A stretch of 56,027 bases of DNA from NCBI GenBank assembly GCA_035651955.1, contig DASRES010000054.1, positions 1 to 56,027 of the forward strand. Reading direction: 5' to 3'. The stretch comes from Acidimicrobiia bacterium (lineage in GTDB: Bacteria; Actinomycetota; Acidimicrobiia; IMCC26256; JAMXLJ01). This document shows, in pieces, positions 1-16,261 of the stretch. Positions within the stretch are counted from its first letter, which is position 1; every line of letters begins with the position of its first letter. The translations under genes were made by a program, and so were the position numbers. Below the pieces are notes generated by a model. It did no database searches. It saw only the letters and a program-made list of their open reading frames with translations, and had not been told where the DNA came from.

Positions 1-1032
1 CTCGTCCGCCAGGCTCGAGACCTGCGCGGCCTCGGCGAGGTCCTGCAGCGCGACACCGTCGACCGGGACGAGCTCGGCTGCCTGCCGGTTCCCGAACGTG
101 ATCGTGCCCGTCTTGTCGAGCAGCAGGGTGGAGCAGTCGCCAGCGGCCTCCACGGCGCGTCCGCTCATCGCGAGCACGTTGCGGCGCACGAGCCGGTCCA
201 TCCCCGCGATGCCGATCGCGGACAGCAGGCCGCCGATCGTCGTCGGGATGAGGCACACGAGGAGCGCGACGAGCGTGATGACCGGCTGCCGCGCGTGCGC
301 GTAGATCGCGAACGGCTGCAACGTGACCGTCGCGAGCAGGAACACGATCGTCAGGCCGGCGAGGAGGATGTTCAGCGCGATCTCGTTCGGCGTCTTCTGG
401 CGGTTGGATCCCTCGACCAGCGCGATCATCCGGTCGACGAACGTCTCGCCGGGGCGCGCGGTGATCCGCACGACGATCTCGTCCGAGAGCACCCGGGTGC
501 CACCCGTGACGGCCGACCGGTCACCGCCCGACTCACGGATGACGGGCGCGGACTCGCCCGTGATCGCGGACTCGTCGATGCTCGCGATCCCCTCGATCAC
601 CTCGCCGTCGCTCGGAATGACCTCGCCCGCCGTGACGACGCACTCGTCGCCGGGCTGCAGCTCGGTGCTCGGACACTCGGTGACCGACCCGTCGGCCCCG
701 CGGCGCCGCGCGACCGTCTCCGTGCGCGTCCGCCGGAGCGTGTCGGCCTGGGCCTTCCCGCGCCCCTCGGCGACGGCCTCGGCGAAGTTGGCGAAGAGGA
801 CGGTGAACCAGAGGAACGCCGCGACCAGACCGGCGAAGACGTTCTCCTGCATCGACGACGAGGGCGCGTCGCGCAGGAACAGGATCGTCGTCAGGACGCT
901 GCCGACCTCGACCACGAACATCACCGGATTGCCGACCATCGTGCGCGGGCTGAGCTTCACGAAGCTGTCGACGATCGCTCGCCGCACCAACGCGGCGTCG
1001 AGCAGCTTCGCCTTCTCACCGGGCTGCGTCAT
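1..1032 (-). CDS. kdpB: K+-transporting P-type ATPase subunit B (KdpB), C-terminus cut by window edge
   Basis: Catalytic subunit of the high-affinity KdpFABC potassium pump in the inner membrane. 344 codons are present and the frame runs open off the window start, so about half the usual ~680 residues is missing. Visible are the first transmembrane helices, the actuator-domain TGES motif near residues 158-161, a further TM pair around residues 222-272, and the phosphorylation motif DKTGT with the aspartate at about 306, matching the family position. The ATG overlaps the kdpA stop as ATGA, so translation is coupled. kdpC would be expected just beyond the window start. Identification is very secure. 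Confidence 0.97.
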
Positions 1033-2735
1033 GCCAACCGCTCCACGATCGGACCCAACGCGAGGGCTGGGAAGTAGGTGAGGCCGACGACGATCAGCAC
1101 GACACCACCGAGCAACCCGGCGAACAGTGGCGTGCCGGTCGGGAACGTGCCGGCCGACGCGGGGACCTTCTGCTTGCGCACGAGCGAGCCCGCGATGCCG
1201 AGCGTCGGCACGATGAGGAAGAACCGGCCGACGAGCATCGCGAGCGCGAGGGTCACCTGGTACCAGGTCGAGGTGACGGTCAGGCCGCCGAACGCGGAGC
1301 CGTTGTTGTTCCCGGCCGACGTGAACGCGTAGACGATCTCCGTGAAGCCATGTTGACCGGGGTTGAGGATCGCGTGCCGCGCGCTGCCGATGACCACCGA
1401 CGCTCCGGCGAAGCCGAGCACGACGAGCGGCACGAACAGGATGTACAGCACGACGAGCTTGACCTCGCCGGCCTGGATCTTCTTGCCGAGGTACTCCGGT
1501 GTCCGGCCGACCATCAAGCCCGCGATGAACACCCCGAGCAGGACGAACACGAGCATCCCGTACAGCCCCGAGCCGACACCGCCCGGGCTGACCTCGCCCA
1601 GCATCATGTTGGCGAGCGGGACCGCACCGCCGAGCGGCGTCATGCTGTCGTGCGCGCAGTCGACGGCTCCCGTCGACGTGCCGGTCGTCGAGGCGGCGTA
1701 CAGGCCGCACCCGGCCGAGCCGAACCGTGTCTCTTTCCCTTCGAGGTTCCCGCCCGGGTTCGTGGCGCTGACGTGTTGCGCGGCACCGGCCGTCGTCAGG
1801 TGCGGATTGCCCGCGGTCTCCTGCGTCATCGCGAACCCCGCCGCGCCGGCCCACAGCACGAACATGACCGCGAACACGACCCAGCCCTGGCGTTGGTCGC
1901 CGGCCATCTTCCCGAACGTGTACGTCAGCGCGAACGGGATGAGGAGCAGCAGGAAGATCTGCAACACGTTCGTGATCGCGTTCGGGTTCTCGAACGGGTG
2001 CGCCGAGTTCGCGTTCAGCGGGCCGCCGCCGTTCGTGCCGATCTCCTTGATCGACTCCTGGCTGGCGAACGGGCCGCCCGGTATGTGCTGCACCTGGTGA
2101 GTGACCGTGTGCGCGGTCGTGAACCCGTGCAGGTTCTGGATCACGCCCTGGCTGACGAAGACGAGCGCGAACACGAAGGAGAGCGGCACGAGGATGCGCA
2201 GCGTGCCGCGCACGAGATCGACCCAGAAGTTCCCGATCGTGCCGCCGCGCGCCCGGACGAGCCCGCGGACGAGCGCGATGGCGACCGCCATGCCGACCGC
2301 GGCAGACGCGAAGTTCTGCACCGCGAGCCCGGCCATCTGCGTGAGATGGCTCATCGTCGACTCGCCCGCGTAGCTCTGCCAGTTGGTGTTGGTCGTGAAG
2401 CTGACCGCGGTGTTGAACGCGACGCTCGGCGACACGCCCTTCACGCCCGTCGGGTCGAGAGGGAGGTGACCCTGCAGACGCTGGAGCAGGTACAGGAGCA
2501 GGACCGACACGACGCTGAACGCGAGCGTCGCGAAGGCGTACGCGCTCCAACGCTGCTCGCGCTCCGGGTCTACGCCGGCGACGCGGTAGACCGCGCGCTC
2601 GACGGGGAGGAACAGCCGGTCGCCGGGCGCGGCTCCGCCGCCGAACACCTTCGCCATGTACGAGCCGAGCAGCGGCGTCGCGACGACGAGTGCGACGGCG
2701 ACGAGCGCGAACTGCCCCCACGCGGGGAACGTCAT
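1029..2735 (-). CDS. kdpA: K+-transporting ATPase subunit A (KdpA), the K+ channel-like subunit
   Basis: 568 residues, the normal length for KdpA, with about ten hydrophobic helices. It selects and binds K+ and resembles a four-repeat K+ channel. The filter loops are visible: TNTNWQSY near residue 115, [18 protein letters not shown] near 235, a GGVGSGLYG loop near 385 and [12 protein letters not shown] near 475. The ATG overlaps the upstream kdpF stop (ATGA) and its own stop overlaps the kdpB ATG, so kdpF-kdpA-kdpB are translationally coupled. The loop between the second and third filter segments carries a longer extracytoplasmic insert with two cysteines (near residues 343 and 359). Confidence 0.97.
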
Positions 2736-2824
2736 CCCAGCCGCTCCGGCAGCAGCAGGGCGATGACGAGGTACACCGCGAGCACGATCGCGACGACCAG
2801 CCCGACGACGTCGTCGATCTTCAC
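2732..2824 (-). CDS. kdpF: KdpF small stabilising subunit
   Basis: A 30-residue single-helix peptide (begins [15 protein letters not shown], ends PERLG) immediately before kdpA. Size, position and the pattern of one helix followed by a Leu-rich end and a short polar tail are those of KdpF, which stabilises the KdpFABC complex. It starts at a GTG that overlaps the stop of the 51-residue peptide upstream (GTGA) and ends overlapping the kdpA ATG. It is too short for normal gene finders. Assignment rests on position and topology; KdpF sequences are poorly conserved. Confidence 0.85.
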
Positions 2825-2976
2825 GCCGCGCGCTCCTCGGGGCTCGTGGGCGTCTCGTCCGCCGTCACGACCGTCTCGTCGGCGCCGATGATCCGGTCGC
2901 ACGCGAACACGAGTGCGACCGCGAGCGCGAAGAACGCGATGACGACCAACGGGTAGACGACGTCAGCGAGCTGCAT
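2821..2976 (-). CDS. 51-residue single-pass membrane peptide in the kdp operon
   Basis: ATG at 2976, one base after the stop of the KdpD-like sensor gene, and a stop that overlaps the kdpF GTG. The sequence has one hydrophobic helix (about residues 7-25, [20 protein letters not shown]...) followed by an acidic, Thr-rich cytosolic tail ([19 protein letters not shown]). I do not recognise a family. The tight coupling to kdpF and the sensor argues that it is real and acts with the Kdp pump, perhaps as a second accessory subunit or a link between sensor and pump. That role is inference. Confidence 0.72.
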
Positions 2977-2977
2977 G

Positions 2978-3718
2978 TCACGCGGTCCCGTTCACGAGGA
3001 GTGAGCCGAGCTGGTCGGCGAGTGCGATCGCGGTCGCGCGGTCGTCGCCCGGGATGAGCATCCCGAAGGTGTCGTACGGGAGGTCGAGAACGAACCGTCC
3101 GATCTGCCGGCCGTCGCCCCACACGGGGAGCTCGAGCCGGCGCGACTCGGCCGGACCGCCGTCGTCCCCGGCGATGCGGACCCGACCGTGCGCGAGCACG
3201 GGAAGCGTGGCGACGAACGGCGGCCGTTCGAACCAGCACGCCTCGAGGTCGAGCAGGTGGGTGAGCTCCGCCTCGACCGCGCGGATCAGCCGGCCCGGCG
3301 GCTCGCCACCGGCCGCGAGCTCGGCGAGCCGCTGGATCCGGTCGAGCTCGTGCTGCTTCTGCAGGGCGTGCATCCGGCTGCGGTACATGCGCACGACGAG
3401 CTCGCCGACGACGAGGCCGACCACGAGCAACAACACCGTCGTCTCGATGTCGTCACGCCCGTTGATCGCGAACGACCCGTACGGCCGGGTGAAGAAGACG
3501 TCGAACGCGACCGCCGACGCGAGCGCGCTCAGCGCGCCGCCCGCGCGGCCGCCGAGGATCGCGGACGCGACCACGACGACGACGAGCACCAGCGCGACGT
3601 TCGACGCCAGCATCTCGGACCGCAGTGGCACCAACGCGGCCGCCACGACGAAGGGCACGCCGACGGCGACCGCCAGACGCCACGGTGTCAGCCGGGGAAA
3701 CGGTTCGACGGGCTTCAC
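2978..3718 (-). CDS. KdpD-like sensor domain protein without a kinase (DUF4118 plus GAF-like)
   Basis: About 246 residues from the GTG at 3718. Four closely packed helices (residues ~10-115) carry the KdpD-type membrane signature around AFDVFFTRPYGSFAI, which is the DUF4118 domain of KdpD. A short coiled linker (RMYRSRMHALQKQHELDRIQ) and a ~110-residue soluble part that looks GAF-like follow. The USP and histidine-kinase domains of a full KdpD (~900 residues) are absent. It is the first gene of the kdp operon, so it probably senses membrane or K+ status or modulates the pump. A longer reading from further upstream exists, but it would add 14 Arg/Cys-rich residues with no support. Confidence 0.82.
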   Translation of the reverse strand: MKPVEPFPRLTPWRLAVAVGVPFVVAAALVPLRSEMLASNVALVLVVVVVASAILGGRAGGALSALASAVAFDVFFTRPYGSFAINGRDDIETTVLLLVVGLVVGELVVRMYRSRMHALQKQHELDRIQRLAELAAGGEPPGRLIRAVEAELTHLLDLEACWFERPPFVATLPVLAHGRVRIAGDDGGPAESRRLELPVWGDGRQIGRFVLDLPYDTFGMLIPGDDRATAIALADQLGSLLVNGTA

Positions 3719-3760
3719 GCACGCCCTTGTACGACACGTGCGGCCGCGCCCGGAACGCAC

Positions 3761-3798
3761 TTGACGGCTTCCTGACGCCCGGCGGACGCCTCTTGACG
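3761..3798. promoter_or_regulatory. Three-box array upstream of the kdp operon (candidate KdpE-type operator)
   Basis: Read on the + strand, TTGACG at 3761, CTGACG at 3772 and TTGACG at 3793 lie at offsets 0, +11 and +32. Direct repeats one helical turn apart are typical of OmpR/KdpE-family response regulators. The array lies between the kimA-like stop and the kdp sensor start, 43 bases from the latter. The same three boxes at the same offsets occur at 5832-5869. A TACAAG hexamer at 3726-3731, 7 bases before the GTG, may be the -10. Naming KdpE as the binder is inference. Confidence 0.6.
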
Positions 3799-3806
3799 AC
3801 CGTCCG

Positions 3807-5780
3807 CTACGCGTCCGCGTGGACGGACGTCTCGCCCATCTTGTACGGGATGATCGTCACGTTCGCGTGCTCGAGCCCGCTGATCGCCTCGGCGATCTCG
3901 TCACCGGTTCGGTCGTGCAGGAAGCGGTGCCACGTGTGGCTGTAGACGCGGTGCGGGAGCACCACGGTCACCTCGGTCTGGCCGTCGGCGAGCTCGGCTG
4001 CGACGTACTCCAGCACGGCGCGCGCGACACGCCGGTCGGGACAGTCGACGAGCTCGAGAGGAACGCGCGCGAGGCCCAGCCGCGCCCATTCGGCGGCGAG
4101 ACGCGCGCCCGCGTCGCGGTCCCACGCGATGTGGACGGCGCGCATCTCGTCGGGAACGAGCGTGCGCGCGTACTGGATCGCACGCGCCGTGCTCTGGTCG
4201 AGCCGCGCGGCGAGGACGAGGACGACATGGCGGCGCAGCACGGGTGCGGTGACGGCTGCGGTCACGTCGTGCTCGAGCTGGTCGGCCTCGGACTCGTACT
4301 GGCGGTTGAGGCGTACGAGCAGCGCGACGAGGACGGGCACGAAGATGATGATCACCCACGCGCCGTGCGTGAACTTCGTGATGCCGATGATGACGTCGAC
4401 GACGGCGGACAGCACGGCGCCGATGCCGTTCACGAACAGGCCCCGCCGCCATCCCGGTTCCTTGCGCGTGACGTGGTGCTTCGCCATGCCGGCCTGCGAC
4501 AGCGTGAACGACGTGAACACGCCGATCGCGTAGAGCGGGATCAGCCGGTCGACCTTCGCGCCCGTCACGACGACGAGCACCGCGGCCGCGAGCGCGAGGG
4601 CGATGATGCCGTTGGAGAACACCAGCCGGTGGCCGCGCTTGGTGAGCTGGCGGGGCATGAAGTTGTCACCCGCGTGGAACGACGCCAGCCGCGGGAAGTC
4701 TGCGAAGCTCGTGTTCGCGGCGAGGACGAGGATCAGCATGGTCCCGACCTGGAGCAGCCCGTAGAGGAGGCCGCCGACCGGGCCCGTCCCGAACACCTGC
4801 TTGCCGACCTGCGAGATGACCGTCGGCGTCCCGGACACGTACGGGATCGGGTGGACACGCGTCGAGAGGACGGACAGCCCCAGGAAGAGCGTCCCGAGCG
4901 TCGCGCCCATGATGATCAGCGTGACGCGCGCGTTCTTCCACTCGGGCTTGCGGAACGCGGTGACGCCGTTGGAGATCGCCTCCACACCGGTCACGGCCGC
5001 GCCACCCGACGCGAACGCGTGCAGCAGCACGTACAGGCCCGCCCCGTACGCGAGGCCGTCGCCCGGGCTGCCGAGCTTCAGCATCCCCTTCTTGCTCACC
5101 GACTGCGGCGCGAGGTGCCCGAACCCCATCTTGTAGAAGCCGACGAGCAGCAGCACGCCCATGATGCCGATGAAGAGGTACGTCGGGACCGCGAAGATCT
5201 TCCCGGACTCACGGACGCCCTTCAGGTTCCCGACCGCGATCACGACGATGAAGAACAGCGAGATCTCGACGGAGTACGGGCGGAGCGACGCGATCGCGGA
5301 CGTCAGCGCGGCGGTGCCCGCCGCCGTCGACACCGCGACGGTGAGCACGTAGTCGGTCAGCAGCGACACCCCCGCGACCTGCGCGGGCAGGAGGCCGAAA
5401 TTGTCGCGCGTGACCATGTACGCGCCACCGGCCGTCGGGTACTCCTTGATCGTCTCGCGGTACGAGAGGATCAGGAAGAACAGCACGACGAGCATCGCGA
5501 TCGTCACGGGGACCACGAGGCTGAACGCCGCGAGGCCCACCGCGATGACGAGGACGCGGAGGATCTCCTCGGTCGCGTACGCCGAGGACGAGATACAGTC
5601 CGACGAGAACACCGCGAGCGCGGTGGGGATCCCGAGGCGCTCGTGCTCGAGCTGGTCCGTGTCGAGCGGCGGACCCAGGAGACGCTTCTTCAACCGGTAG
5701 CGCCGGCTCTCGGGAAGGTTCGGCGCCGCGGTCGGCGGCGGCATCGGAGTGGGCGCCTGACGCGGGGTGACGGTCTCCAT
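3807..5780 (-). CDS. KimA-like K+ uptake permease (APC superfamily), copy 1
   Basis: 657 residues. The N-terminal ~480 residues hold about 12 helices, starting with the LGIPTALAVFSSDCISSSAYATEE segment typical of the KimA/YdaO branch of APC permeases. The last ~170 residues are a soluble alpha/beta domain, as in KimA, a K+/H+ symporter regulated by c-di-AMP in Bacillus. The family is often annotated simply as 'APC family permease' or 'amino acid permease'. The surroundings (kdp, trkA, H+-pyrophosphatase) favour potassium as the substrate. A close paralogue lies at 8817-10826. The ATG at 5780 has no Shine-Dalgarno but has a TAGAAA six bases upstream, so the mRNA may be leaderless. Confidence 0.85.
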   Translation of the reverse strand: METVTPRQAPTPMPPPTAAPNLPESRRYRLKKRLLGPPLDTDQLEHERLGIPTALAVFSSDCISSSAYATEEILRVLVIAVGLAAFSLVVPVTIAMLVVLFFLILSYRETIKEYPTAGGAYMVTRDNFGLLPAQVAGVSLLTDYVLTVAVSTAAGTAALTSAIASLRPYSVEISLFFIVVIAVGNLKGVRESGKIFAVPTYLFIGIMGVLLLVGFYKMGFGHLAPQSVSKKGMLKLGSPGDGLAYGAGLYVLLHAFASGGAAVTGVEAISNGVTAFRKPEWKNARVTLIIMGATLGTLFLGLSVLSTRVHPIPYVSGTPTVISQVGKQVFGTGPVGGLLYGLLQVGTMLILVLAANTSFADFPRLASFHAGDNFMPRQLTKRGHRLVFSNGIIALALAAAVLVVVTGAKVDRLIPLYAIGVFTSFTLSQAGMAKHHVTRKEPGWRRGLFVNGIGAVLSAVVDVIIGITKFTHGAWVIIIFVPVLVALLVRLNRQYESEADQLEHDVTAAVTAPVLRRHVVLVLAARLDQSTARAIQYARTLVPDEMRAVHIAWDRDAGARLAAEWARLGLARVPLELVDCPDRRVARAVLEYVAAELADGQTEVTVVLPHRVYSHTWHRFLHDRTGDEIAEAISGLEHANVTIIPYKMGETSVHADA

Positions 5781-5786
5781 CGCGCG

Positions 5787-5792
5787 TTTCTA
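5787..5792 (-). promoter_or_regulatory. Candidate -10 box of a leaderless promoter for the kimA-like gene
   Basis: TAGAAA on the minus strand ends six bases before the ATG, which would put the transcription start at the start codon. The three-box array lies 40 bases upstream of this hexamer; in the kdp leader the distance is 30, one helical turn less. This is pattern evidence only. Confidence 0.45.
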
Positions 5793-5831
5793 CGGGTCCC
5801 ACCCCGCGCGCCCGCAGCCCGGCCCGGCGTC

Positions 5832-5869
5832 TTGACGCGTTCTTGACGCGGACCGGCCGCGTCCTGATG
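5832..5869. promoter_or_regulatory. Three-box array upstream of the kimA-like gene (candidate KdpE-type operator)
   Basis: On the + strand TTGACG at 5832, TTGACG at 5843 and CTGATG at 5864 sit at offsets 0, +11 and +32, exactly as in the array before the kdp operon (3761-3798). The first two boxes are part of an 11-base tandem repeat, TCTTGACGCG(T/G). The array is 52 bases upstream of the permease ATG. A shared operator for kdp and this K+ permease is the simplest reading. Confidence 0.6.
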
Positions 5870-5878
5870 CGGACGCGA

Positions 5879-5911
5879 CACGGCCCGCCGCTCGATGGAG
5901 GGCGGGCCGTG
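5879..5911 (-). terminator. Hairpin downstream of the H+-pyrophosphatase gene
   Basis: Perfect 11-base inverted repeat (CACGGCCCGCC / GGCGGGCCGTG) with an 11-base loop, starting 32 bases after the hppA stop. There is no T-tract, as is usual for high-GC actinobacterial terminators. Confidence 0.7.
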
Positions 5912-5942
5912 ACAGCGGATGACGCCGTTGCTGCCGTGTGTC

Positions 5943-8300
5943 TTACGGCGCGAGCTGCGCCTCGCGCTCGTGGATCGCCTCCTCGACGATCTCGGACTCC
6001 TCGGCGAACCCGCCGCCCTTGCGCTTCGAGAACGCGATCGCGACGAGCAGGATGACGAGGCTCGCACCCGCGATGCCGAAGCGCGCGGCGTCGTTGTTGC
6101 GGAGGCTGATCACCGCGGGGAGCACGAGGAGCGCGACGAGATTCATCACCTTGATGAGCGGGTTGAGCGCGGGACCCGCGGTGTCCTTGAACGGGTCGCC
6201 GACGGTGTCGCCGATGACGGCGGCCTTGTGTGCCTCGGAGCCCTTGCCGCCCTCGTGACCGTCCTCGATGTACTTCTTCGCGTTGTCCCACGCGCCACCG
6301 GCGTTGTTGAGGAAGTTCGCCATCAACTGACCGGTGAGGATGACGGCGCCGAGGAACGCGCCGAGCGCGAGGTAGCTGACGCCGAACCCGACGATGACGG
6401 GCGACAGCACCGCGAGCAGCGCGGGCGTCGCGAGCTCGCGCAGCGACGCCTTCGTGCAGATGTCGATGACCGGGCCGTAGTCGGGCCGCTTCGTGCCCGC
6501 CATGATCTGACCGTCGGCGAACTGCGAGCGGACCTCCTGCACGACGGTCCCCGCGGTGCGGCCGACGGCGCGGATGGCGAGCGCGCTGAACAGGAACGCG
6601 ATCGAGCCACCGATGAGCAGTCCGATGAACGTCTTCGGCTCGGCGATGTTGATCTGGGTCGCGGTGTCGTGGAAGAGGGCCGAACCGGTCTTGCCGATGT
6701 TGAGCTCGCTGCCGATCGTCTCGATGAACGAGGCGAACAACGCGACGGCCGCGATGACCGCGGAGCCGATCGCGAACCCCTTCGTGACCGCCTTGGTCGT
6801 GTTCCCGACCGCGTCGAGCCCGACCATGATCCGCTCCGGCTCGCCGCCGAACTCGCCCGACATCTCGGCGATGCCCGCCGCGTTGTCGGCGACCGGGCCG
6901 AAGCTGTCCTCGGACACGACGACGCCCGTCGTCGCGAGCATGCCCATGCCGGTCAGCGCGATGAGGTACAGCGAGAACTGGATGTTGCCGCCGCCGAGCC
7001 CGATCGCGACACCGATCGTGATGGCGATGGCGATGATCGCCCACACCGACGACTCGAGACCGCTGCCGATGCCGGCGAGCACCGTCGTGGCCGGGCCGGT
7101 GCGTGTGGCCTCCGCGATCTCGCGGACCGGCTCGCGCTCGGTGGACGTGAAGTGCTCGGTGAGCGCGCTGACGGCCTGGGCGAGGATCAGCCCGACGACG
7201 ACCGCGCCGAACATCTTCCAGCCCTCGTTCTTCGGGCCGTTGCCGACGTACGCGAGCGCGACGACGAGCGTCGCGACGACGGTCAGCACGCCCGCGGTGA
7301 GGAACCCGCGGTTGATCGGTGCCATCGCGGAACGGTCGTTGTCCCTGGCGCGCACGGCGAAGACGCCGCAGATCGACGCGAGCACGCCGAGCGCGCGGAC
7401 GATCAGCGGGAAGATCAGACCGAGCACCCACTTGGTCGGGTCGTGGGGATAGATGGAGCGGAACGCGGCGACGCCCAGGATGATCGACGCCACGAGCGTG
7501 ACCTCGTAGCTCTCGAAGAGGTCGGCCGCCATCCCGGCGCAGTCGCCGACGTTGTCACCGACGTTGTCGGCGATCGTCGCGGGGTTGCGCGGGTCGTCCT
7601 CGGGGATGCCCTGCTCGACCTTGCCGACGAGGTCGGCACCGACGTCGGCCGCCTTCGTGAAGATCCCGCCGCCGACGCGCATGAACAGTGCGAGCAACGA
7701 TCCGCCGAAGCTGAAGCCGACGAGGATCGCGGTCGCGCTGTTCTGGAAGACCATGATGATGATCGTCGCCCCGAGCAGGCCGAGGCCGACGGTGAACATG
7801 CCCGCGATGCCGCCCGTCCGGAAGGCGACGCGAAGCGCACCGGGCAGGGACCCGGTGCGCGCGGCGGCTGCGGTGCGGACGTTCCCGCGTACTGCGAGGC
7901 TCATCCCGATGAACCCGGTGAGCCCGGACAGGAACCCGCCGACGATGAACGCGATCGTGCGGAACGCGCCCGACGCGACGAACGACAGCGCCTCCTCACC
8001 GCCCGGCTTCGCGACGCGCGTCGACGTGAAGAAGACTGCCGCCGCGACGGGCACGAGGATGATGAGGATCGTGCGGAACTGGCGCCGGAGGTACGCCATC
8101 GCGCCCTCCTGGATCGCCTTCGCGATCTCGCGCATCGTCGGCGTGCCCTCGTCCGCCGCGAGGACGCCGCGCATGAGGAACAGGCCGACCAGGATCGCGA
8201 GCAGCGCCGTGGCGATCGAGAACACCAGCCAGAACCACTCCGCGCCGGTGAGCTTGAACTCCTGGTAGCTGCCCTCGGCCGCGAGGATGATGCTCCCCAA
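5943..8300 (-). CDS. hppA: Membrane-bound H+-translocating pyrophosphatase (K+-independent type)
   Basis: Hydrolyses pyrophosphate to pump protons across the membrane. The frame is open to 8423, but the best start is the TTG at 8300, preceded by AAGGAG at an 8-base spacing, which gives 785 residues beginning MGSIILAAEGSYQEF and about 16 helices. The catalytic signature DNVGDNVGDCAGMAADLFE lies near residues 245-262. The ion-class position reads GNTTKA with Lys at about residue 503; in this family Lys marks K+-independent enzymes and Ala marks K+-dependent ones. A TTGACA-18-TACCGT promoter lies upstream and a hairpin downstream. Confidence 0.96.
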   Translation of the reverse strand: MGSIILAAEGSYQEFKLTGAEWFWLVFSIATALLAILVGLFLMRGVLAADEGTPTMREIAKAIQEGAMAYLRRQFRTILIILVPVAAAVFFTSTRVAKPGGEEALSFVASGAFRTIAFIVGGFLSGLTGFIGMSLAVRGNVRTAAAARTGSLPGALRVAFRTGGIAGMFTVGLGLLGATIIIMVFQNSATAILVGFSFGGSLLALFMRVGGGIFTKAADVGADLVGKVEQGIPEDDPRNPATIADNVGDNVGDCAGMAADLFESYEVTLVASIILGVAAFRSIYPHDPTKWVLGLIFPLIVRALGVLASICGVFAVRARDNDRSAMAPINRGFLTAGVLTVVATLVVALAYVGNGPKNEGWKMFGAVVVGLILAQAVSALTEHFTSTEREPVREIAEATRTGPATTVLAGIGSGLESSVWAIIAIAITIGVAIGLGGGNIQFSLYLIALTGMGMLATTGVVVSEDSFGPVADNAAGIAEMSGEFGGEPERIMVGLDAVGNTTKAVTKGFAIGSAVIAAVALFASFIETIGSELNIGKTGSALFHDTATQINIAEPKTFIGLLIGGSIAFLFSALAIRAVGRTAGTVVQEVRSQFADGQIMAGTKRPDYGPVIDICTKASLRELATPALLAVLSPVIVGFGVSYLALGAFLGAVILTGQLMANFLNNAGGAWDNAKKYIEDGHEGGKGSEAHKAAVIGDTVGDPFKDTAGPALNPLIKVMNLVALLVLPAVISLRNNDAARFGIAGASLVILLVAIAFSKRKGGGFAEESEIVEEAIHEREAQLAP

Positions 8301-8421
8301 CTGCGTGACTCCTTGGTCGAGACCCCACCGGTCGCCCTCGGACCGGATGCGTCGCTGACGCGCGAACCGTCGCTCCCCCGGCCCGGCGCGGCGGGTCCCG
8401 GGGGCGAAACTGCGGCGAGAC

Positions 8422-8451
8422 ACGGTACGGGCGCATTTCGGGCAGTGTCAA
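8422..8451 (-). promoter_or_regulatory. hppA promoter (TTGACA, 18-base spacer, TACCGT)
   Basis: Consensus -35 TTGACA at 8446-8451 and TANNNT-type -10 TACCGT at 8422-8427 on the minus strand, giving a leader of about 115 bases before the TTG start at 8300. The Tad operon has the same -10 hexamer and spacing. Confidence 0.6.
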
Positions 8452-8501
8452 TCTGTACGGAACATCACACGCCGGACGCGCGCGCGACCGAGACGGCACG
8501 T

Positions 8502-8517
8502 ACGCCGCCGGCGGCGT
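8502..8517. terminator. Short GC palindrome after the OB-fold gene
   Basis: ACGCCGCC/GGCGGCGT is a perfect 16-base palindrome directly abutting the stop of the OB-fold gene. As RNA it would fold into a short hairpin and could end the kimA2-OB transcript before hppA. Chance GC symmetry cannot be excluded. Confidence 0.35.
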
Positions 8518-8820
8518 TCAGTGGTCGAGCAGCTCGACGACGGGGTTGAGGATCGCGAGGTAGCCGCGGTGCTCCCCGACCATCCCCTCGGCGATGACGT
8601 GCCGGCCGAGCTCGACGCCCGCGATCCTCCGGCGCCCGAGGAAGATGAGCAGCAGCCCGCCGGTGTCGTCGACGACCGTGCACTCGAGCGAACCCACCTC
8701 GGCCCAGGGCTGCACCCGGATCGAGCGGATCCGACCCCGCACGCGCACCCACGTCCGCCACGTCACCTGGCCGATCGGGACGACGGGCAGGCTCCCGGGC
8801 TCGGCGTCCGTCGCGGTCAT
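8518..8820 (-). CDS. OB-fold nucleic-acid-binding-like protein linked to K+ genes
   Basis: 100 residues, all one small domain: a hydrophobic strand pattern with WVRVRGRIRSIRVQPWAE and a VVDDTGGLLLIFLGRR segment typical of a single OB fold of the RecG-wedge or tRNA-anticodon type. The ATG overlaps the stop of the KimA-like gene (ATGA). In mycobacteria an OB-fold gene also sits in the same block as an APC permease and two TrkA genes (the ceoB/ceoC region), so the linkage is ancient. Its function there is not known to me; nucleic-acid binding is inferred from the fold. Confidence 0.8.
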   Translation of the reverse strand: MTATDAEPGSLPVVPIGQVTWRTWVRVRGRIRSIRVQPWAEVGSLECTVVDDTGGLLLIFLGRRRIAGVELGRHVIAEGMVGEHRGYLAILNPVVELLDH

Positions 8821-10826
8821 GCGTGCGGCGAGTCCATGCGCTCGCCGTCCGACTGGACCTGCTCGACCGTCAGCGACGGCGCGCCGAGGTGGTACGGGAT
8901 CTGGGTGACGTTGACATGCTGGAGCTGGCTCATCGCGCGCGCCATCTCGTCCGCGGTGCGGTCGTGCAGCAACCGGTGCCAGAACCGCTTGTACACGCGA
9001 TGGGGCATGACCACGGTGACCTCGGTGTCACCGCCGGCCAGCTCGGCCGCGACGTATTCGAGGGCGGCGCGGGCGATGCGGCGGCTCGGGCAGTCGACGA
9101 GCTCGAGCGGGACGCGCGCGAGACCGAGCCGGCGCCAGTTCGCGGCGAGCTCCTCCGCCGCGTGACGGTCGATGGCGATGTGCACGGCCCGCATCTCGTC
9201 GGGCACGAGGGTCCGTGCGTACTGGATGGCGCGCGCGGCTGCGCGATCGAGGCGCGCGACGAACACGAGCACGACGTGCCGCCGCAGGATCGGCGCGGTC
9301 GCCGCGGTCTCGGCGTCGCGCTCGAGCTCCTCGGCCTCCGCCTCGTACTGGTGGTTCAGGCGGTACAGCAGCGCGACGAAGATCGGGACCAGCACGATGA
9401 TGATCCACGCACCCTCGGTGAACTTCGCGACCGCGAAGATCACGAGGACGATCCCGGACAGCACCGCACCGGTCGCGTTCACGACCAGGCCCCAGCGCCA
9501 CCCGGGCTCCTTCTTCCTGATGTGGTGGCGCGCCATGCCGGACTGCGAGAGCGTGAACGACGTGAACACGCCGATCGCGTAGAGCGGGATGAGGCGGGCG
9601 ACGTTCGCGCCCGTCGCGACCACGAGGACCGCCGCGACCGCGCCGAGGGAGATGATCCCGTTCGAGAACACGAGGCGCTGCCCGCGCTTCGTGAGCTGCT
9701 TCGGCATGAACGCGTCGGCCGCCTGGAACGACGCAAGGCGCGGGAAGTCGGCGAAGCTGGTGTTGGCGGCGAGGACGAGGATCAGCATCGTCCCCGCCTG
9801 CAGGATGTAGTAGAGCGAGTCGCCGAGCGCGCCGCCCCCGAACACCTGCTTGCCGACCTGCGAGATGACGGTCGGCGTGCCGGACGTGAACGGCACCGCG
9901 TGGACCTTGGTCGACAGGACCGACAGTCCCAGGAACGCGGTGCCGAGCGTGACGCCCATGATGATGAGCGTCACCCGGGCGTTCTTCCACTCCGGCTTGC
10001 GGAACGCGCTGACGCCGTTCGAGATCGCCTCGACGCCCGTCATCGCGGAGCCACCCGACGCGAACGCGTGCAGGAACGCGTAGATCCCGATGCCGTAGAG
10101 GAACCCGCTGCCGGCCGTCCCCGCCTTGATCATGCCCTTCTGGTGGATCGACTGCGGGACGAGGTGCCCGAACCCGGCCTTGTACAGGCCGAGCACGATG
10201 ACGAGCCCCATCATGAACATGAAGAGATAGGTCGGGAACGAGAACACCCGTCCCGACTCGCGGACACCACGCAGGTTGCCGAACGCGATCACGACGATGA
10301 AGAAGAGCGAGATCTCGACGGCGTACGGGCGCAACGGTGACGCCGCGGACGTGAGCGCGGCCGTCCCGGCCGAGACCGAGACGGCGACGGTCAGCACGTA
10401 GTCGGTCAGCAGCGAGACACCGGCGACCTGCGCGGGCAGCAGCCCGAAGTTGTCGCGGGTGACCATGTAGGCGCCACCCGCCGTCGGGTACTCCTTGATC
10501 GTCTGCCGGTAGGACAGGATCAGGAAGAAGAGGACGACGAGCATCATCAGCGTCGCCGGCACGACGAGGCTGAAGGCGGCGAGGCCGGCCGCCGGCACGA
10601 GGACGCGCAGGATCTCCTCGGTCGCGTACGCGGAGGACGAGATGCAGTCCGACGAGAACACCGCGAGCGCGGTGGGGATGCCGAGGCGCTCGTGCTCCAG
10701 CGCCTCGGTGTCGAGCGGCGGACCGAGGAGCTTGTGCTTCAGCCGGTAGCCCCGGCTCTCCTTCAGCTCGACCTCGGGCGCGGGCGGCAGCGGCTTCGGC
10801 GTCGCCTGCGTCGGGAACGTCCGCAT
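8817..10826 (-). CDS. KimA-like K+ uptake permease (APC superfamily), copy 2
   Basis: 669 residues, closely similar throughout to the permease at 3807-5780, with the same LGIPTALAVFSSDC start of helix 1, the EYPTAGGAYMVTRDNFG motif and a soluble C-terminal alpha/beta domain. It differs in several loops and in a short extra C-terminus ending QSDGERMDSPHA. It is transcribed away from the two trkA genes, whose products gate K+ transporters by binding nucleotides, and is coupled to the OB-fold gene. The three-box array of copy 1 is absent from its 98-base upstream region, so the two copies are probably regulated differently. Confidence 0.85.
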   Translation of the reverse strand: MRTFPTQATPKPLPPAPEVELKESRGYRLKHKLLGPPLDTEALEHERLGIPTALAVFSSDCISSSAYATEEILRVLVPAAGLAAFSLVVPATLMMLVVLFFLILSYRQTIKEYPTAGGAYMVTRDNFGLLPAQVAGVSLLTDYVLTVAVSVSAGTAALTSAASPLRPYAVEISLFFIVVIAFGNLRGVRESGRVFSFPTYLFMFMMGLVIVLGLYKAGFGHLVPQSIHQKGMIKAGTAGSGFLYGIGIYAFLHAFASGGSAMTGVEAISNGVSAFRKPEWKNARVTLIIMGVTLGTAFLGLSVLSTKVHAVPFTSGTPTVISQVGKQVFGGGALGDSLYYILQAGTMLILVLAANTSFADFPRLASFQAADAFMPKQLTKRGQRLVFSNGIISLGAVAAVLVVATGANVARLIPLYAIGVFTSFTLSQSGMARHHIRKKEPGWRWGLVVNATGAVLSGIVLVIFAVAKFTEGAWIIIVLVPIFVALLYRLNHQYEAEAEELERDAETAATAPILRRHVVLVFVARLDRAAARAIQYARTLVPDEMRAVHIAIDRHAAEELAANWRRLGLARVPLELVDCPSRRIARAALEYVAAELAGGDTEVTVVMPHRVYKRFWHRLLHDRTADEMARAMSQLQHVNVTQIPYHLGAPSLTVEQVQSDGERMDSPHA

Positions 10827-10924
10827 GCGGGACAGTCAACCACGACCCGGACACACCGCTGGATCCGGTGACACCTCGCCCGGCCGGTACCATCTGCGAC
10901 TTCACACGAGCACGGGAGTGCGTG

Positions 10925-11596
10925 GTGCACGTCGTCGTCGTCGGGTGCGGTCGGGTCGGGAGCGAGCTCGCCGGCATGCTCGAGAAGTCCGGTCACACCG
11001 TCGCGGTCGTCGACAAGCGGCGCGAGGCGTTCCGCCGGCTGCCGACCGGCTTCGGGGGCACGACGGTCGTCGGCTTCGGCTTCGACCGCGACACGCTCGC
11101 CGAGGCGGGCATCGAGCGGGCGGGCGCGCTCGCCGCGGTGACGAGCGGCGACAACTCGAACATCATGTCGGCGCGCGTCGCGCGCGAGACGTTCGAGGTC
11201 GAGCGGGTCGTGGCCCGCATCTACGACCCGCGTCGCGCCGTGATCTATCAGCGGCTCGGGATCCCGACCGTGGCCACCGTCTCCTGGACGACCGACCAGG
11301 TGATGCGGCGGTTGCTCCCGGGTGCGCACCCGGCGGACTGGGTCGACGGCAGCGGGCAGGTCGCGCTCGTCGAGCGCGATCTCCCCGCGCACTGGGCGGG
11401 CAAGAAGCTCGCGGAGCTCCAGGAGCCGGGCCGGTTCGTCCTCACCGCGGTCACGCGGCTCGGCGGTGCGCGCGTCTTCGACGGCGATCTCGTCGGCCAG
11501 GAAGGCGACGTGCTGCACTTCGTCGTCGACATGAACGACCTCGACGCGCTGCGCGCGCGATTGCAGGGCGCGGGCGACGAAGGAGGCGGGCACTGA
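10925..11596 (+). CDS. trkA: TrkA/KtrA family K+ channel or transporter regulatory subunit 1
   Basis: 223 residues from the GTG at 10925, chosen because GGGAG lies six bases upstream; an adjacent GTG at 10922 is too close to it. The N-terminal RCK/TrkA-N Rossmann fold has GCGRVG at residues 7-12 and the ribose-binding acidic residue D30. A TrkA-C-like domain follows from about residue 140. Such cytosolic subunits bind NAD(H) or ATP/ADP and gate membrane K+ transporters. It overlaps the next gene by one base (TGATG). The pair corresponds to mycobacterial ceoB and ceoC. Confidence 0.92.
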   Translation: MHVVVVGCGRVGSELAGMLEKSGHTVAVVDKRREAFRRLPTGFGGTTVVGFGFDRDTLAEAGIERAGALAAVTSGDNSNIMSARVARETFEVERVVARIYDPRRAVIYQRLGIPTVATVSWTTDQVMRRLLPGAHPADWVDGSGQVALVERDLPAHWAGKKLAELQEPGRFVLTAVTRLGGARVFDGDLVGQEGDVLHFVVDMNDLDALRARLQGAGDEGGGH

Positions 11597-12258
11597 TGCG
11601 CGTCGCGATCGCGGGGGCGGGCAACGTCGGGACGTTCATCGCGAGCGAGCTCGTCGCGAACGGCCACGCCGTGCTGCTGATCGAGCAGGACCCCGACGTC
11701 GCCGGGAAGGTCCCGACCGCGGCCGGTCTCGACGTGAAGGTCGCCGACGCGTGCGAGGTGTCGTCGCTCAAGGAGGCGGGACTCGACACGTGCGACGTCG
11801 TCGTGGCCGCGACCGGTGACGACGAGGACAACCTCGTCGTCTCGCTGCTCGCGAAGCAGGAGTTCGCGGTGCCCCGCGTCATCGCGCGCGTGAACCACCC
11901 GAAGAACGAGTGGCTCTTCAACGAGTCGTGGGGCGTCGACCTGTCCGTCTCGACGCCGCACCTCATCACCGCGCTCGTCGACGAGGCGGTGAGTGTCGGC
12001 CGGCTCGTGCGGCTGTTCCAGCTCGAGGGTGGCCAGGTGCGCCTCGTCGAGGTCCGGCTGGACGAGCAGTCGACGATCACCGGGAAGGCGATCCGCGAGG
12101 TCGACGTGCCCCGCGACGCGACGTTCGTCGCGATCGTGCGCGACGACCACGTCGTGATGGCGCGCGGTGACACCGTGTTCCACCCCGGCGACGAGGTGCT
12201 CGCGCTCGTGACACCCGACTCGGAGGACGAGGTCCGCAACCTGCTCACAGGGGGCTGA
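11596..12258 (+). CDS. trkA: TrkA/KtrA family K+ channel or transporter regulatory subunit 2
   Basis: 220 residues, ATG overlapping the preceding stop by one base and preceded by a strong AAGGAGG. The Rossmann motif is GAGNVG at residues 7-12 with E30 at the end of strand 2, followed by a TrkA-C domain with QSTITGKAIREVDVP near residue 160. It is paralogous to the upstream subunit, and the two probably form a hetero-oligomeric ring. No TrkH/KtrB membrane partner is in the window; the adjacent KimA-like permease is the obvious candidate, by inference. Confidence 0.92.
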   Translation: MRVAIAGAGNVGTFIASELVANGHAVLLIEQDPDVAGKVPTAAGLDVKVADACEVSSLKEAGLDTCDVVVAATGDDEDNLVVSLLAKQEFAVPRVIARVNHPKNEWLFNESWGVDLSVSTPHLITALVDEAVSVGRLVRLFQLEGGQVRLVEVRLDEQSTITGKAIREVDVPRDATFVAIVRDDHVVMARGDTVFHPGDEVLALVTPDSEDEVRNLLTGG

Positions 12259-12295
12259 TCGCTTCCCCAAGCGTCCACCGCTCGGTGCGCGCGGC

Positions 12296-12955
12296 ATGCC
12301 ATCCTGTCGCCGCTCTATGTCGCCGTCCCGCACCATGGCAACCGTCGTGGCCGTCGCGATGTGCGCGTCCGCGCTGGCCGCGTGCTCGGGCGGATCGTCG
12401 AAGGCACGCTCGTCGAAGGCCGCGCCGATCAACAGCAGCGTCGCGCTCCAGTTGACGACCACGAACGTCGAGAGCGCGGGTCCCGCGGTCGCGTTCCCCG
12501 CGGACGTCCGGGACCAGGCCGCGCAGGTCGTGAACAGCTACGTCGAGGGCGCGGTCGTCACCGCGTTGCGCACGGGCACGAGCGACCCGAGGTTCACCCA
12601 GGTGTTCACGCCCGACGCGGCCGCGAAGGCCACGGGGCCGGACCGCGCCGTCGTCACCGACGACGGCGTCGAGAAGACGACCGGCTCGATCGATCCGTCG
12701 AAGGCGACGGTCGCGCTCACCGCGCTGGCGGACACGGCGGGCCACGTCGTGCTCGTCTCGGCCGCGCTGACGCTCGACCTGCGCGCGCCCGTCGCCGGCG
12801 GGACGCTGCACCTGACCCGTCTCGGTGACCTGGTCCTGGCGCCGTCGGGCGGCGCTTGGCGCGTCGCCGGGTACGACCTCGCGGTCACCCGCGACGGGCC
12901 CGGCGTGACCGCGGCCGCCGCGTCCGGGCGCGCGCACGAAGGGCCGACGGCATGA
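12296..12955 (+). CDS. Hypothetical secreted lipoprotein (Mce-associated/SnoaL-like size)
   Basis: 219 residues with a clear lipoprotein signal: a hydrophobic stretch ending LAAC, then GGSSKARSSK. An in-frame ATG at 12317 would give a more usual n-region and may be the true start. The mature part has no motif I recognise; its length and the ending (GGAWRVAGYDLAV) recall small NTF2-like secreted domains. The stop overlaps the ATG of the LCP gene, so the two are co-translated and the lipoprotein probably works at the cell wall with it. Confidence 0.75.
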   Translation: MPSCRRSMSPSRTMATVVAVAMCASALAACSGGSSKARSSKAAPINSSVALQLTTTNVESAGPAVAFPADVRDQAAQVVNSYVEGAVVTALRTGTSDPRFTQVFTPDAAAKATGPDRAVVTDDGVEKTTGSIDPSKATVALTALADTAGHVVLVSAALTLDLRAPVAGGTLHLTRLGDLVLAPSGGAWRVAGYDLAVTRDGPGVTAAAASGRAHEGPTA

Positions 12956-13875
12956 CACTGCTGCGCCGGCACCCGGTCGTCAGCGCGCTCGTGATCGCAC
13001 CGCTGTGCGCGCTCCTCGCGGTCGCCCTGCTGTTCGCCGCGTGGCTGCACGGGACGCGCATCCCGTTCGCGTCCGGCGCGACGTGGTTCAGCGTCGAGAA
13101 AGTGGGTCAGGCGCACTACAACGGCGAGCCGACACAGCCCGTGTTCTTCCTGATCGTCGGGAACGACTCGCGCGGCGGACCCGGCAACGCGCGTGGTGAC
13201 GCGCTCCACCTCGTCGGTGTGAACCCGGCGCTGCACAAGGCGACGATCCTCGACATCCCGCGCGACACCAGCGCGCAGATCCCCGGACACGGCACCGACA
13301 AGGTCAACGCTGCGCTCGCGTACGGCGGCCTGGCGTTGCAGGCGCAGACCGTCGCGAAGCTCGTCGGCGTCGACGTCCCGTACGCGATGACCACCGACTT
13401 CGACGGGTTCACCGCGCTGATCGACGGCGTCGGCGGCATCGACGTGAACGTGCCGTTCCCGATGCACGACACGTACTCGGGGGCGTACTTCCAGCCCGGC
13501 GTGGTCCACATGAACGGCCAGCAGGCGCTCGCGTTCTGCCGGGACCGTCACGACTTCCCCACCGGCGACCTCCAGCGCAGCGAGGACCAGGGGACGTTCA
13601 TGCTCGCCGCGCTCGCGCAGCTCCGGGCCCAGAACCCGGACGCGACGGGGACGATCCACCTGCTCGCGCTGCTGGGCCGGCACGTCCAGCTCGACGGCAT
13701 CGGCCTCGGCGACCTCTACCGCCTCGTGCGGCTCGGCCTGGCCTTCGACCCCAGCCAGGTCCGCAACGTCCGGGTCCCGGTCACGAACGGCACCGGCACG
13801 AACCTCGCGCTCGGCTCGGACGCGCAGTCCCTCTTCCGCGACTTCGCCGACGACGCAGTGCTCGAGAGTCATTGA
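12952..13875 (+). CDS. LytR-CpsA-Psr (LCP) family cell-wall glycopolymer ligase
   Basis: 307 residues: one N-terminal helix (~9-30), then an extracytoplasmic LCP domain with VFFLIVGNDSRGG, the RGDALHLVGVNP strand, the ILDIPRDT motif, a KVNAALAYGG helix, a GGIDVNVPFPMHD segment and FCRDRHD. These are the signature elements of enzymes that transfer lipid-linked glycopolymers to peptidoglycan. The family residues Arg and Asp around the pyrophosphate site are present. It has no large C-terminal extension. The four-base overlap with the lipoprotein suggests a wall-assembly pair. Confidence 0.9.
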   Translation: MTLLRRHPVVSALVIAPLCALLAVALLFAAWLHGTRIPFASGATWFSVEKVGQAHYNGEPTQPVFFLIVGNDSRGGPGNARGDALHLVGVNPALHKATILDIPRDTSAQIPGHGTDKVNAALAYGGLALQAQTVAKLVGVDVPYAMTTDFDGFTALIDGVGGIDVNVPFPMHDTYSGAYFQPGVVHMNGQQALAFCRDRHDFPTGDLQRSEDQGTFMLAALAQLRAQNPDATGTIHLLALLGRHVQLDGIGLGDLYRLVRLGLAFDPSQVRNVRVPVTNGTGTNLALGSDAQSLFRDFADDAVLESH

Positions 13876-13972
13876 TCGGTCGCGCTCGCAAGCTCGCCGC
13901 TCCCCTGCCAACAGCTCCTTGCGCTGGCCAACGCGATCGACCGCGCCGGTCCGTCTGCGTCACACCTCCACC

Positions 13973-13978
13973 TATCCT
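13973..13978 (+). promoter_or_regulatory. Candidate leaderless -10 for the helicase gene
   Basis: TATCCT ends six bases before the GTG at 13985 and there is no Shine-Dalgarno, so transcription probably starts at the start codon. The same arrangement precedes nadE and, with a 7-base gap, the HAD gene. Confidence 0.45.
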
Positions 13979-13984
13979 CGGGGC

Positions 13985-16261
13985 GTGGACGCGTGCGACA
14001 CCGTCGGCGAGCTCTGCGCGCACCCCGAGCTGTCGGAGCGCGTGGTGTTCCGCGCCACCTTGCCGGCGCGCCCGTCCCGCTTCGCCGAGCCCGAGGTGGA
14101 GCTGCGTCGCGACACGATGGCGCTGCTCGGCCAGCGCAAGATCGACGCGCTCTACACCCACCAGGCGCGCGCGGTGGACGCGCTGCGAGCCGGGCGGAGC
14201 ATCGTCGTGGCGACGGGCACGGCGTCGGGAAAGTCGCTGTGCTACCAGGTGCCAATCCTGGAGTCGGCGCTCGCAGGACGCAGCGACACCGCGCTGCTGC
14301 TGTTCCCGACGAAGGCGCTCGCGCAGGATCAACTCCGCTCGCTCCGGTCGTGGATGATCCCAGGGCTACGCGCGTACGCGTACGACGGTGACTCCTCGCC
14401 CGACGAGCGCGCCGAAGCGCGCAAGCGCGCGACAGTGCTGCTGACGAATCCCGACATGCTCCACGTCGGGATCCTGCCGACACACCAGCGATGGGCGACG
14501 TTCCTGATGCGATTGCGCTACGTCGTCGTCGACGAGCTGCACACGCTGCGCGGGATCTTCGGCAGTCATGTCGCGCATCTCCTCCGTCGGTTGCGACGTC
14601 TCTGCGCGCACTACGGCTCGGACCCGGTCTTCTGCTTCTCCAGCGCGACGATCGGCAACCCGGGTGAGCTGGCGTCGACGTTGTGCGGCCTCCCCGTCGA
14701 GGTGATCGACGACGACGGCGCGCCGCAGGCCGAGCGGTCGTTCGTGTGCTGGCAGCGCCCCGTCGTCGACGAGCGCTCGGGTGCGCGCGCGTCGGGCAAC
14801 GTCGAGACCGGACACCTCCTCGCGCGGTTCGTCGCCGGCGACCACCAGACCCTCGCCTTCACGCGCACGCGCACCAGCACCGAGCTCGTCGCCGCGCACG
14901 CGCGCCGCGCGCTCGAGAGCAGCGCGCCGCAGCTCGCGTCGCGGGTCAACGCGTACCGCGGCGGCTATCTCGCGACGGAGCGGCGCGCGCTGGAGCAGGG
15001 CCTGAACGACCGGGCGCTCCTCGGGGTCGCGGCGACGACCGCACTGGAGCTCGGCGTCGACATCGGGGGGCTCGACGCGATCGTGCTCAACGGGTTTCCC
15101 GGGACGCTCGCGTCGATGTGGCAGCAGGTCGGCCGGGCCGGCCGGTCCGCTCGGCGCGCCGCCGCGGTGCTCGTCGCCGGCGACGACCAGCTCGACCAGT
15201 GGTACGCCGCCCATGCCGACCAGCTCCTCACCCGCCGACCGGAGGCCGCGGTCGTCAACCCGGCCAACCCGTTCGTCGCGGCACCCCACATCGCGTGCGC
15301 AGCACACGAGCTACCGCTCACCCACGACGACGAGCAGTACTTCGGGGACCAGCTCGACGACGTCGTGCGCGATCTCGTCCTGAACGACGAGCTCAAGCCG
15401 CGGGGTGGCCGGATGTTCTGGTCCGGGCGCGATGCGCCGGCCCGGCGGGTCGGGTTGCGGAGCGGATCGTCGGTCGAGTTCCGGCTCGTCGACTGCGGTG
15501 ACGACCGCCTCGTCGGCACGGTCGACGGCGCGCGTGTCTTCAACGTCGCGCACGAGGGCGCGATCTATCTCCACCAGGGCCGGCAGTACCGGGTCGAGCG
15601 ACTCGACCTGCGCGATCACGTCGCGTACCTGGTACCCGCCGACGACGCCGACGAGTACACGCAGACGCGCGACGACACCGACATCGAGGTGCGGGACGTC
15701 ACCGCCTCACGCTCGATCGGCGCGGGCGTGGCCCATCTCGGCGAGGTGGACGTCACGAGCCGCGTGGTCGCGTACCAGCGGACGCGCGCGTCGACGAACG
15801 AGCGGATCGAGGTGGTCGAGCTCGATCTGCCGCCCCAGTCGCTCGTGACGCGGGCGTGCTGGTACACGGTCCCGCACGACGTGCTCGCGCGCGCGGGCGT
15901 CGATCCCAACCGCGTGCTCGGCACGGTGCACGCCGCCGAGCACGCGCTCATCGGGCTGCTCCCACTGTTCGCGATCTGCGACCGCTGGGACGTCGGCGGC
16001 GTGTCGATGGCGTGGCATCCCGTGACGGGTGAGCCGACGATCTTCGTCTACGACGGGTACCCGGGCGGAGCCGGCATCGCCGAGCTCGCGTACGACGCGC
16101 TCGAGAGCCACGTGGCGGCCACGCTCGAGCTCGTGGCCGGCTGCGGATGCGAGGACGGGTGCCCGTCGTGCGTCCAGTCGCCGAAGTGCGGCAACTGGAA
16201 CGAGCACCTCGACAAGAGCGGTGCGATCGCCGTGCTCCGGCTTCTCGCCGGCGGCCGCTGA
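13985..16261 (+). CDS. DEAD/DEAH-box helicase with C-terminal zinc-binding domain (helicase/secretion-neighborhood type)
   Basis: 758 residues from the GTG at 13985. Helicase motif I GTASGKS lies at residues 78-84, motif II DELH at ~183-186, then FSSATI and QQVGRAGRSARR, followed by a C-terminal metal-binding cluster C-x-C-x3-C-x2-C-x5-C near residue 725. This is the MrfA/Hrq1-like superfamily 2 group; in Bacillus, MrfA acts in mitomycin-damage repair. In actinobacteria this gene is a hallmark of the helicase/secretion neighborhood beside the Tad cluster, as it is here. A longer frame from 13919 lacks start support. Confidence 0.94.
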   Translation: MDACDTVGELCAHPELSERVVFRATLPARPSRFAEPEVELRRDTMALLGQRKIDALYTHQARAVDALRAGRSIVVATGTASGKSLCYQVPILESALAGRSDTALLLFPTKALAQDQLRSLRSWMIPGLRAYAYDGDSSPDERAEARKRATVLLTNPDMLHVGILPTHQRWATFLMRLRYVVVDELHTLRGIFGSHVAHLLRRLRRLCAHYGSDPVFCFSSATIGNPGELASTLCGLPVEVIDDDGAPQAERSFVCWQRPVVDERSGARASGNVETGHLLARFVAGDHQTLAFTRTRTSTELVAAHARRALESSAPQLASRVNAYRGGYLATERRALEQGLNDRALLGVAATTALELGVDIGGLDAIVLNGFPGTLASMWQQVGRAGRSARRAAAVLVAGDDQLDQWYAAHADQLLTRRPEAAVVNPANPFVAAPHIACAAHELPLTHDDEQYFGDQLDDVVRDLVLNDELKPRGGRMFWSGRDAPARRVGLRSGSSVEFRLVDCGDDRLVGTVDGARVFNVAHEGAIYLHQGRQYRVERLDLRDHVAYLVPADDADEYTQTRDDTDIEVRDVTASRSIGAGVAHLGEVDVTSRVVAYQRTRASTNERIEVVELDLPPQSLVTRACWYTVPHDVLARAGVDPNRVLGTVHAAEHALIGLLPLFAICDRWDVGGVSMAWHPVTGEPTIFVYDGYPGGAGIAELAYDALESHVAATLELVAGCGCEDGCPSCVQSPKCGNWNEHLDKSGAIAVLRLLAGGR

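Follow-up and report, generated by a model that had tools for sequence, protein, structure and literature searches.

Paired three-box arrays upstream of kdp and a kimA-like gene in an Acidimicrobiia genome are predicted KdpE operators of a kind found across much of the Actinomycetota

Two identically spaced arrays of three hexamers, one upstream of the kdp operon and one upstream of the first of two kimA-like genes, are very probably operators of the response regulator KdpE, judging from sequence. An earlier note had proposed an OmpR/KdpE-type operator over kdp and kimA copy 1, and this is supported by the rarity of the array, its conservation, its match to a KdpE site and the presence of an encoded KdpE. 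That the array represents a KdpE-type operator of a known kind, broad in its distribution and partly unrecognised, is well supported, with physical binding predicted. The three-box array reaches far beyond this one genome, across much of the Actinomycetota; in the papers searched, no description was found of the three-box antisense form, of its spread across the phylum or of its use before kimA.

The window, by which we mean the whole 56,027-nucleotide stretch analysed, is the entire contig C54 of a 4.1-Mb assembly in 92 contigs (Table 1). All six boxes were present on the + strand where they had been placed earlier, and the offsets are exactly 0/11/32 at both loci. The genes downstream of both arrays lie on the - strand; in the antisense direction the boxes are therefore YTGAYG, and in the sense direction CGTCAA. 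Assignment of the 3761 array to the kdp operon holds for the kdp locus as a whole, with the precision that the first gene behind it is the DUF4118 gene, not kdpF; two small membrane-protein ORFs (the second being kdpF), kdpA and kdpB follow. The remaining genes, kdpC, kdpD and kdpE, are located on another contig of this genome, C7.

Table 1 Features of the two K+ loci and of the kdpDE genes
Feature	Position	Strand	Basis or remarks
kdpB, 5' part, cut by contig edge	1..1032	-	
kdpA	1029..2735	-	TIGR00680, 778.7 bits
kdpF, 30 aa	2732..2824	-	position and composition; translation
51-aa ORF, putative single-helix membrane protein	2821..2976	-	translation
DUF4118 protein, first kdp-operon gene (KdpD-like membrane domain, no kinase)	2978..3718	-	PF13493, E=2.1e-20; weak KdpD-like match
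Candidate -10 TACAAG (kdp)	3726..3731	-	29 bp from proximal box; 7 bp before GTG
Predicted KdpE-type operator, kdp	3761..3798	+	TTGACG 3761, CTGACG 3772, TTGACG 3793; offsets 0/11/32; antisense to operon
kimA copy 1, KimA/KUP-like APC-superfamily putative K+ importer	3807..5780	-	PF13520; relatives
Candidate -10 TAGAAA (kimA copy 1)	5787..5792	-	39 bp from proximal box; 6 bp before ATG
Predicted KdpE-type operator, kimA copy 1	5832..5869	+	TTGACG 5832, TTGACG 5843, CTGATG 5864; offsets 0/11/32; antisense to gene
kimA copy 2, lacking a comparable array; divergent from trkA genes	8817..10826	-	
KdpE	L136:11147-11833		full OmpR-type regulator
KdpD	L136:11830-14340		

The arrays are rare. With at most one mismatch, the three-box pattern matched twice in the window and never in 100 dinucleotide shuffles, and across the whole 4.1-Mb genome only the arrays at 3761 and 5832 matched; at up to two mismatches there were five genome-wide matches against two for a reversed control pattern. 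The genome-wide scan was done by patterns, not by matrix. A scoring matrix built from the sites of 52 relatives only, with the window left out, gave the 3761 and 5832 arrays 39.6 and 34.2 bits, respectively, ranks 1 and 2 in the window, where the next-best position scored 12.7 bits; the maximum over 60 simulated windows was 14.7 bits. Exact two-box matches occur elsewhere in the genome on contigs C17, C37, C56 and C82, that on C56 beside an NRAMP-like transporter gene and that on C82 between folE- and folP-like genes (named by eye), and none of the queried K+ genes turned up within ~1.5 kb of those on C17 and C37. As none of the four fits the three-box pattern at one mismatch or fewer, they were rejected as extra regulon members and are taken as chance or weak sites.

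Arrays with offsets 0/11/32 stand before kdp in many relatives from the same order, antisense in nearly all clear cases (for example G025, TTGACG/TTGACG/CTGACG; G044, TTGACG/CTAACG/TTGACG; and G007, TTGACG/TTGGCG/TTGACG), and G041 carries one array on each strand before kdp. When 805 three-box spacings were scored with the hexamer of the earlier note, with window regions excluded from both the kdp and the kimA sets, the 11/32 spacing came out on top for kdp, over 25 upstream regions taken mainly from the order and its class (z 5.2), and for kimA, over 19 upstream regions (z 5.5). The antisense 11/32 geometry was likewise first of 805 in 89 Actinomycetota kdpA upstream regions (z 6.8), with 42 of the 89 loci above threshold, compared with an average of 1.1 at the other geometries; in all these sets related genomes are not independent. 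Most of these arrays (38/42) lie at -150 to -400 from kdpA, usually ~300 bp upstream, and the phylum set takes in genomes that we infer to be Streptomyces-like (7-11 Mb) and Mycobacterium-like (5-6 Mb, with a match to the published site). Of the kdpA loci in this set, about half are without a clear antisense array, some being of a sense type and others showing neither at threshold, which counts against the assignment to KdpE. Conservation includes positions outside the scored hexamers, namely TTC before box 2 and TC before box 3. Across 58 genomes of the order, the pattern at one mismatch or fewer gave 10 matches versus 2 for the control, six of them at kdp or kimA, and a further, exact match separates a KdpDE-like pair from a gene similar to the KimA C-terminal domain. 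Two findings could have undone the earlier proposal, occurrence of the pattern at random frequency and loss of the boxes from orthologous promoters; genome-wide, at one mismatch or fewer, the pattern occurs only at the two K+ loci, and the boxes are conserved before kdp in the order and in the phylum, so the proposal came through both.

The best solved matches of the KdpE encoded in this genome are 6lgq and E. coli KdpE 4kny, the latter spanning its length, and the protein keeps the DNA-contact residues equivalent to R193, R200 and T215 (residue roles from PMC3264566). The arrays contain tandem half-sites 11 bp apart that show the KdpE core TTkAYr. E. coli KdpE recognises the half-sites TTTATA-N5-TTTACA (PMC3264566), and its kdpFABC site (PMC3264566, PDB 4KNY) resembles the arrays in its 6-bp direct half-sites 5 bp apart and its TT-AC/AT core, while differing in being AT-rich and on the sense strand, with only boxes 1 and 2 described as half-sites (PMC3264566). 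At Mycobacterium smegmatis PkdpF, the minimal site CCGTAAAGAAACCATCAAGGCC is required for KdpE according to footprint and EMSA (PMC5401905). On its antisense strand this site reads GGCC-TTGATGGTTTC-TTTACGG, which corresponds to boxes 1 and 2, oriented as here, with half-sites TTGATG/TTTACG, 11-bp spacing, the intervening TTC and the orientation to kdp all shared. KdpE binding and activation were demonstrated there by experiment (PMC5401905), whereas the arrays described here are known from sequence. The accessible portions of that report present the site as a 22-bp A-rich mycobacterial motif without noticeable similarity to other KdpE motifs, and name neither an 11-bp repeat nor a +32 box (PMC5401905); here, by contrast, there are three boxes, a wider range of lineages and a second target, kimA. 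A member of the phylum with a near-identical M. smegmatis site does have TTGACG at +32, before kdpA.

Read on the opposite strand, the published M. smegmatis site agrees with the half-sites of E. coli KdpE. The two are thereby joined as one motif read on opposite strands, which gives a concrete KdpE recognition code for the Actinomycetota, where the one proven site had been reported as unlike any other. The arrays are antisense, as in M. smegmatis, and E. coli has the sense orientation; this mismatch with E. coli weighs against KdpE, although orientation is not family-defining, because the proven M. smegmatis site differs from E. coli as well. The position of arrays beside regulator genes also points to KdpE: in L143 an array lies between kdpDE and kimA, and in L141, L142, L162 and L186 it has a kdpDE-like or KdpD-like gene set on one side and a kimA-like gene on the other. 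Full-length KdpD is encoded in 39/39 genomes with the antisense array and in 26/45 without it (Fisher p ~8e-7, confounded by phylogeny).

The main competing explanation is a different OmpR-family regulator (of PhoP, RegX3, MtrA or GlnR type, or a KdpDE-like paralogue) that answers another stress and controls the K+ genes incidentally. Tandem 11-bp half-sites are general to the OmpR family, some 35 receiver domains are encoded in the genome, and KdpDE-like paralogues sit beside kimA arrays in some relatives. We nevertheless consider this improbable, given that the array tracks kdp and kdpDE-linked kimA across the phylum, that it has the sequence of the footprinted KdpE site of M. smegmatis, and that full-length KdpD accompanies it, with the phylogenetic confounding noted above. 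Still further from likely is that the YTGACG boxes are -35-like hexamers or a compositional accident: TTGAC does resemble the -35 consensus and GACG is common in GC-rich genomes, yet the boxes are antisense to the gene and their spacing is conserved across families, and chance, -35 elements and local composition were rejected by the genome scan, the shuffles and the matrix null. KimA-like K+ importers are known elsewhere for control by c-di-AMP, and a c-di-AMP (ydaO-type) riboswitch over kimA or kdp was also considered and rejected, an Rfam search of positions 1-14000 having returned no match at the gathering threshold.

A third alternative concerns the origin of the two arrays and is compatible with KdpE binding, namely that they are one promoter element copied by segmental duplication together with kimA. 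The KimA1 and KimA2 proteins are paralogues (75% identical), kimA1 is placed precisely between hppA and kdp and is flanked by an array on either side, and G007 has the order kimA-OB-hppA-[array]-DUF4118-kdp. The sequence between and around the boxes is, however, unlike by eye, so any duplication would be old, with only the boxes retained, and we regard such an origin as rather unlikely. As for the two kimA copies, the earlier statement that copy 2 lacks the array proved correct: the trkA-linked KimA copy 2 has no comparable array, its best three-box antisense score being 6.7 compared with 16.2 for copy 1. In a tree, KimA1 groups with trkA-linked KimA proteins and other array-bearing KimAs fall in other clades, which needs at least four changes of array label. 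The kimA arrays are antisense in the window, G052 and G006 and sense in G037/G050/G056/G043, G046, G049 and G014/G024. Because of these label changes and of the occurrence of kimA arrays in both orientations, KimA was apparently recruited into the predicted KdpE regulon repeatedly. The arrays place KimA-like proteins as a second class of K+ importer under predicted KdpE control in this lineage. The identity and function of KimA come from family-level matches, a point we count against the KdpE assignment.

The candidate -10 hexamers bear out the observation in the earlier note that the two box-to-(-10) distances (29 versus 39 bp) differ by 10 bp, one helical turn. Most antisense arrays of the order have a TAsAAC-type -10 at 28-29 bp from box 1 and a start codon 6-7 bp later, a spacing which suggests leaderless transcripts, and the kdp array of the window conforms to it. 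The kimA1 distance departs from this kdp rule by 10-11 bp, and this too speaks against KdpE. A second architecture consists of four sense-strand boxes at 0/11/32/43, in which the end of the last box is mostly ~10-12 bp from the -10. It precedes kdp in other lineages of the Actinomycetota and kimA in other families of the order. The E. coli PhoB pho box, the target of another OmpR-family regulator, has head-to-tail 11-bp repeats ~10 bp upstream of the -10; it resembles the sense-type arrays in layout and differs in sequence, and the antisense arrays instead lie ~28 bp from the -10. Many Actinomycetota genomes with kdpA (such as G276, G356 and G485) encode a short KdpD of ~270-430 aa, too short for a kinase, and several of them carry the sense four-box array. 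This rules out that short-KdpD genomes are simply array-less, and the KdpD association therefore concerns architecture.

The E. coli kdp promoter, read from NC_000913 (L156, kdpF promoter, strand -, ~1360-1420), fits the sense four-box architecture, with TTTATA, TTTACA, TTTGCG and TTTGCA at 0/11/32/43 and TACCCT after a further 10 bp, and TTTGCG/TTTGCA at +32/+43 may be a second pair of KdpE half-sites. The promoters in L101 (a planctomycete) and L114 (a melainabacterium) resemble that of E. coli. In a plain four-box test across mixed phyla, +32 was not the winner and 11/22 ranked first; on the sense strand of the other phyla taken together, only the 11-bp pair and the 11/22 tandem stand out. 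Outside the Actinomycetota, support for a universal +32 thus comes only from single promoters. The division into antisense and sense types was recognised post hoc, though its spacings were tested by grid. A wider generalisation, which we hold to be evenly balanced between right and wrong, would be that KdpE operators across bacteria share one grammar of 11-bp half-site pairs, one to two in number and repeated at +32, in two opposite orientations with a fixed -10 distance each. The antisense three-box form at 28-29 bp would belong to Acidimicrobiia and Streptomyces- and Mycobacterium-like genomes, and the sense four-box form at ~10-12 bp to other Actinomycetota, the planctomycete, the melainabacterium and E. 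coli; under this scheme KdpE would use two different contacts to activate RNA polymerase, and KimA would have been captured independently in either orientation. If true, the flipped orientation offers a clean natural test of how far an OmpR-family activator tolerates inversion of its operator.

For the two arrays of the window we propose the following mechanism. Under K+ limitation, the sensor kinase KdpD would phosphorylate KdpE, an OmpR/PhoB-family protein whose gene shares another contig with kdpC and kdpD. KdpE would bind head-to-tail to the 11-bp-spaced half-sites TTGACGnnTTC/YTGACG, and the +32 box, two turns (21 bp) beyond box 2, would be the putative seat of a further protomer, with the stoichiometry equally provisional. 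So placed, KdpE would activate a -10-only promoter ~28 bp downstream, or 39 bp at kimA1 and presumably on the same helix face, and the transcript, from its predicted start, would probably be leaderless. The KdpFABC pump and the KimA-type importer of copy 1 would be co-induced, and the trkA-linked KimA copy 2 would stay outside the regulon.

Several features of gene content were observed alongside the arrays. In L162 (G046, contig C100, ~1501), an exact array has a KdpDE-like two-component system on one side and, on the other, a gene whose product resembles the cytosolic C-terminal domain of KimA; this gene may be an additional, non-transporter member of the regulon. The DUF4118 gene (2978-3718) is kept before kdpA in many relatives despite a full KdpD being encoded downstream, and its product is possibly a K+-sensing partner. 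The order kimA, a gene for an OB-fold-like protein, hppA (membrane pyrophosphatase) and kdp, divergent from two trkA genes, recurs (window 3807-10826; relatives L149 and L153), and this kimA/OB-fold/hppA/kdp/trkA set makes up an Acidimicrobiia island for K+ uptake and ion pumping.
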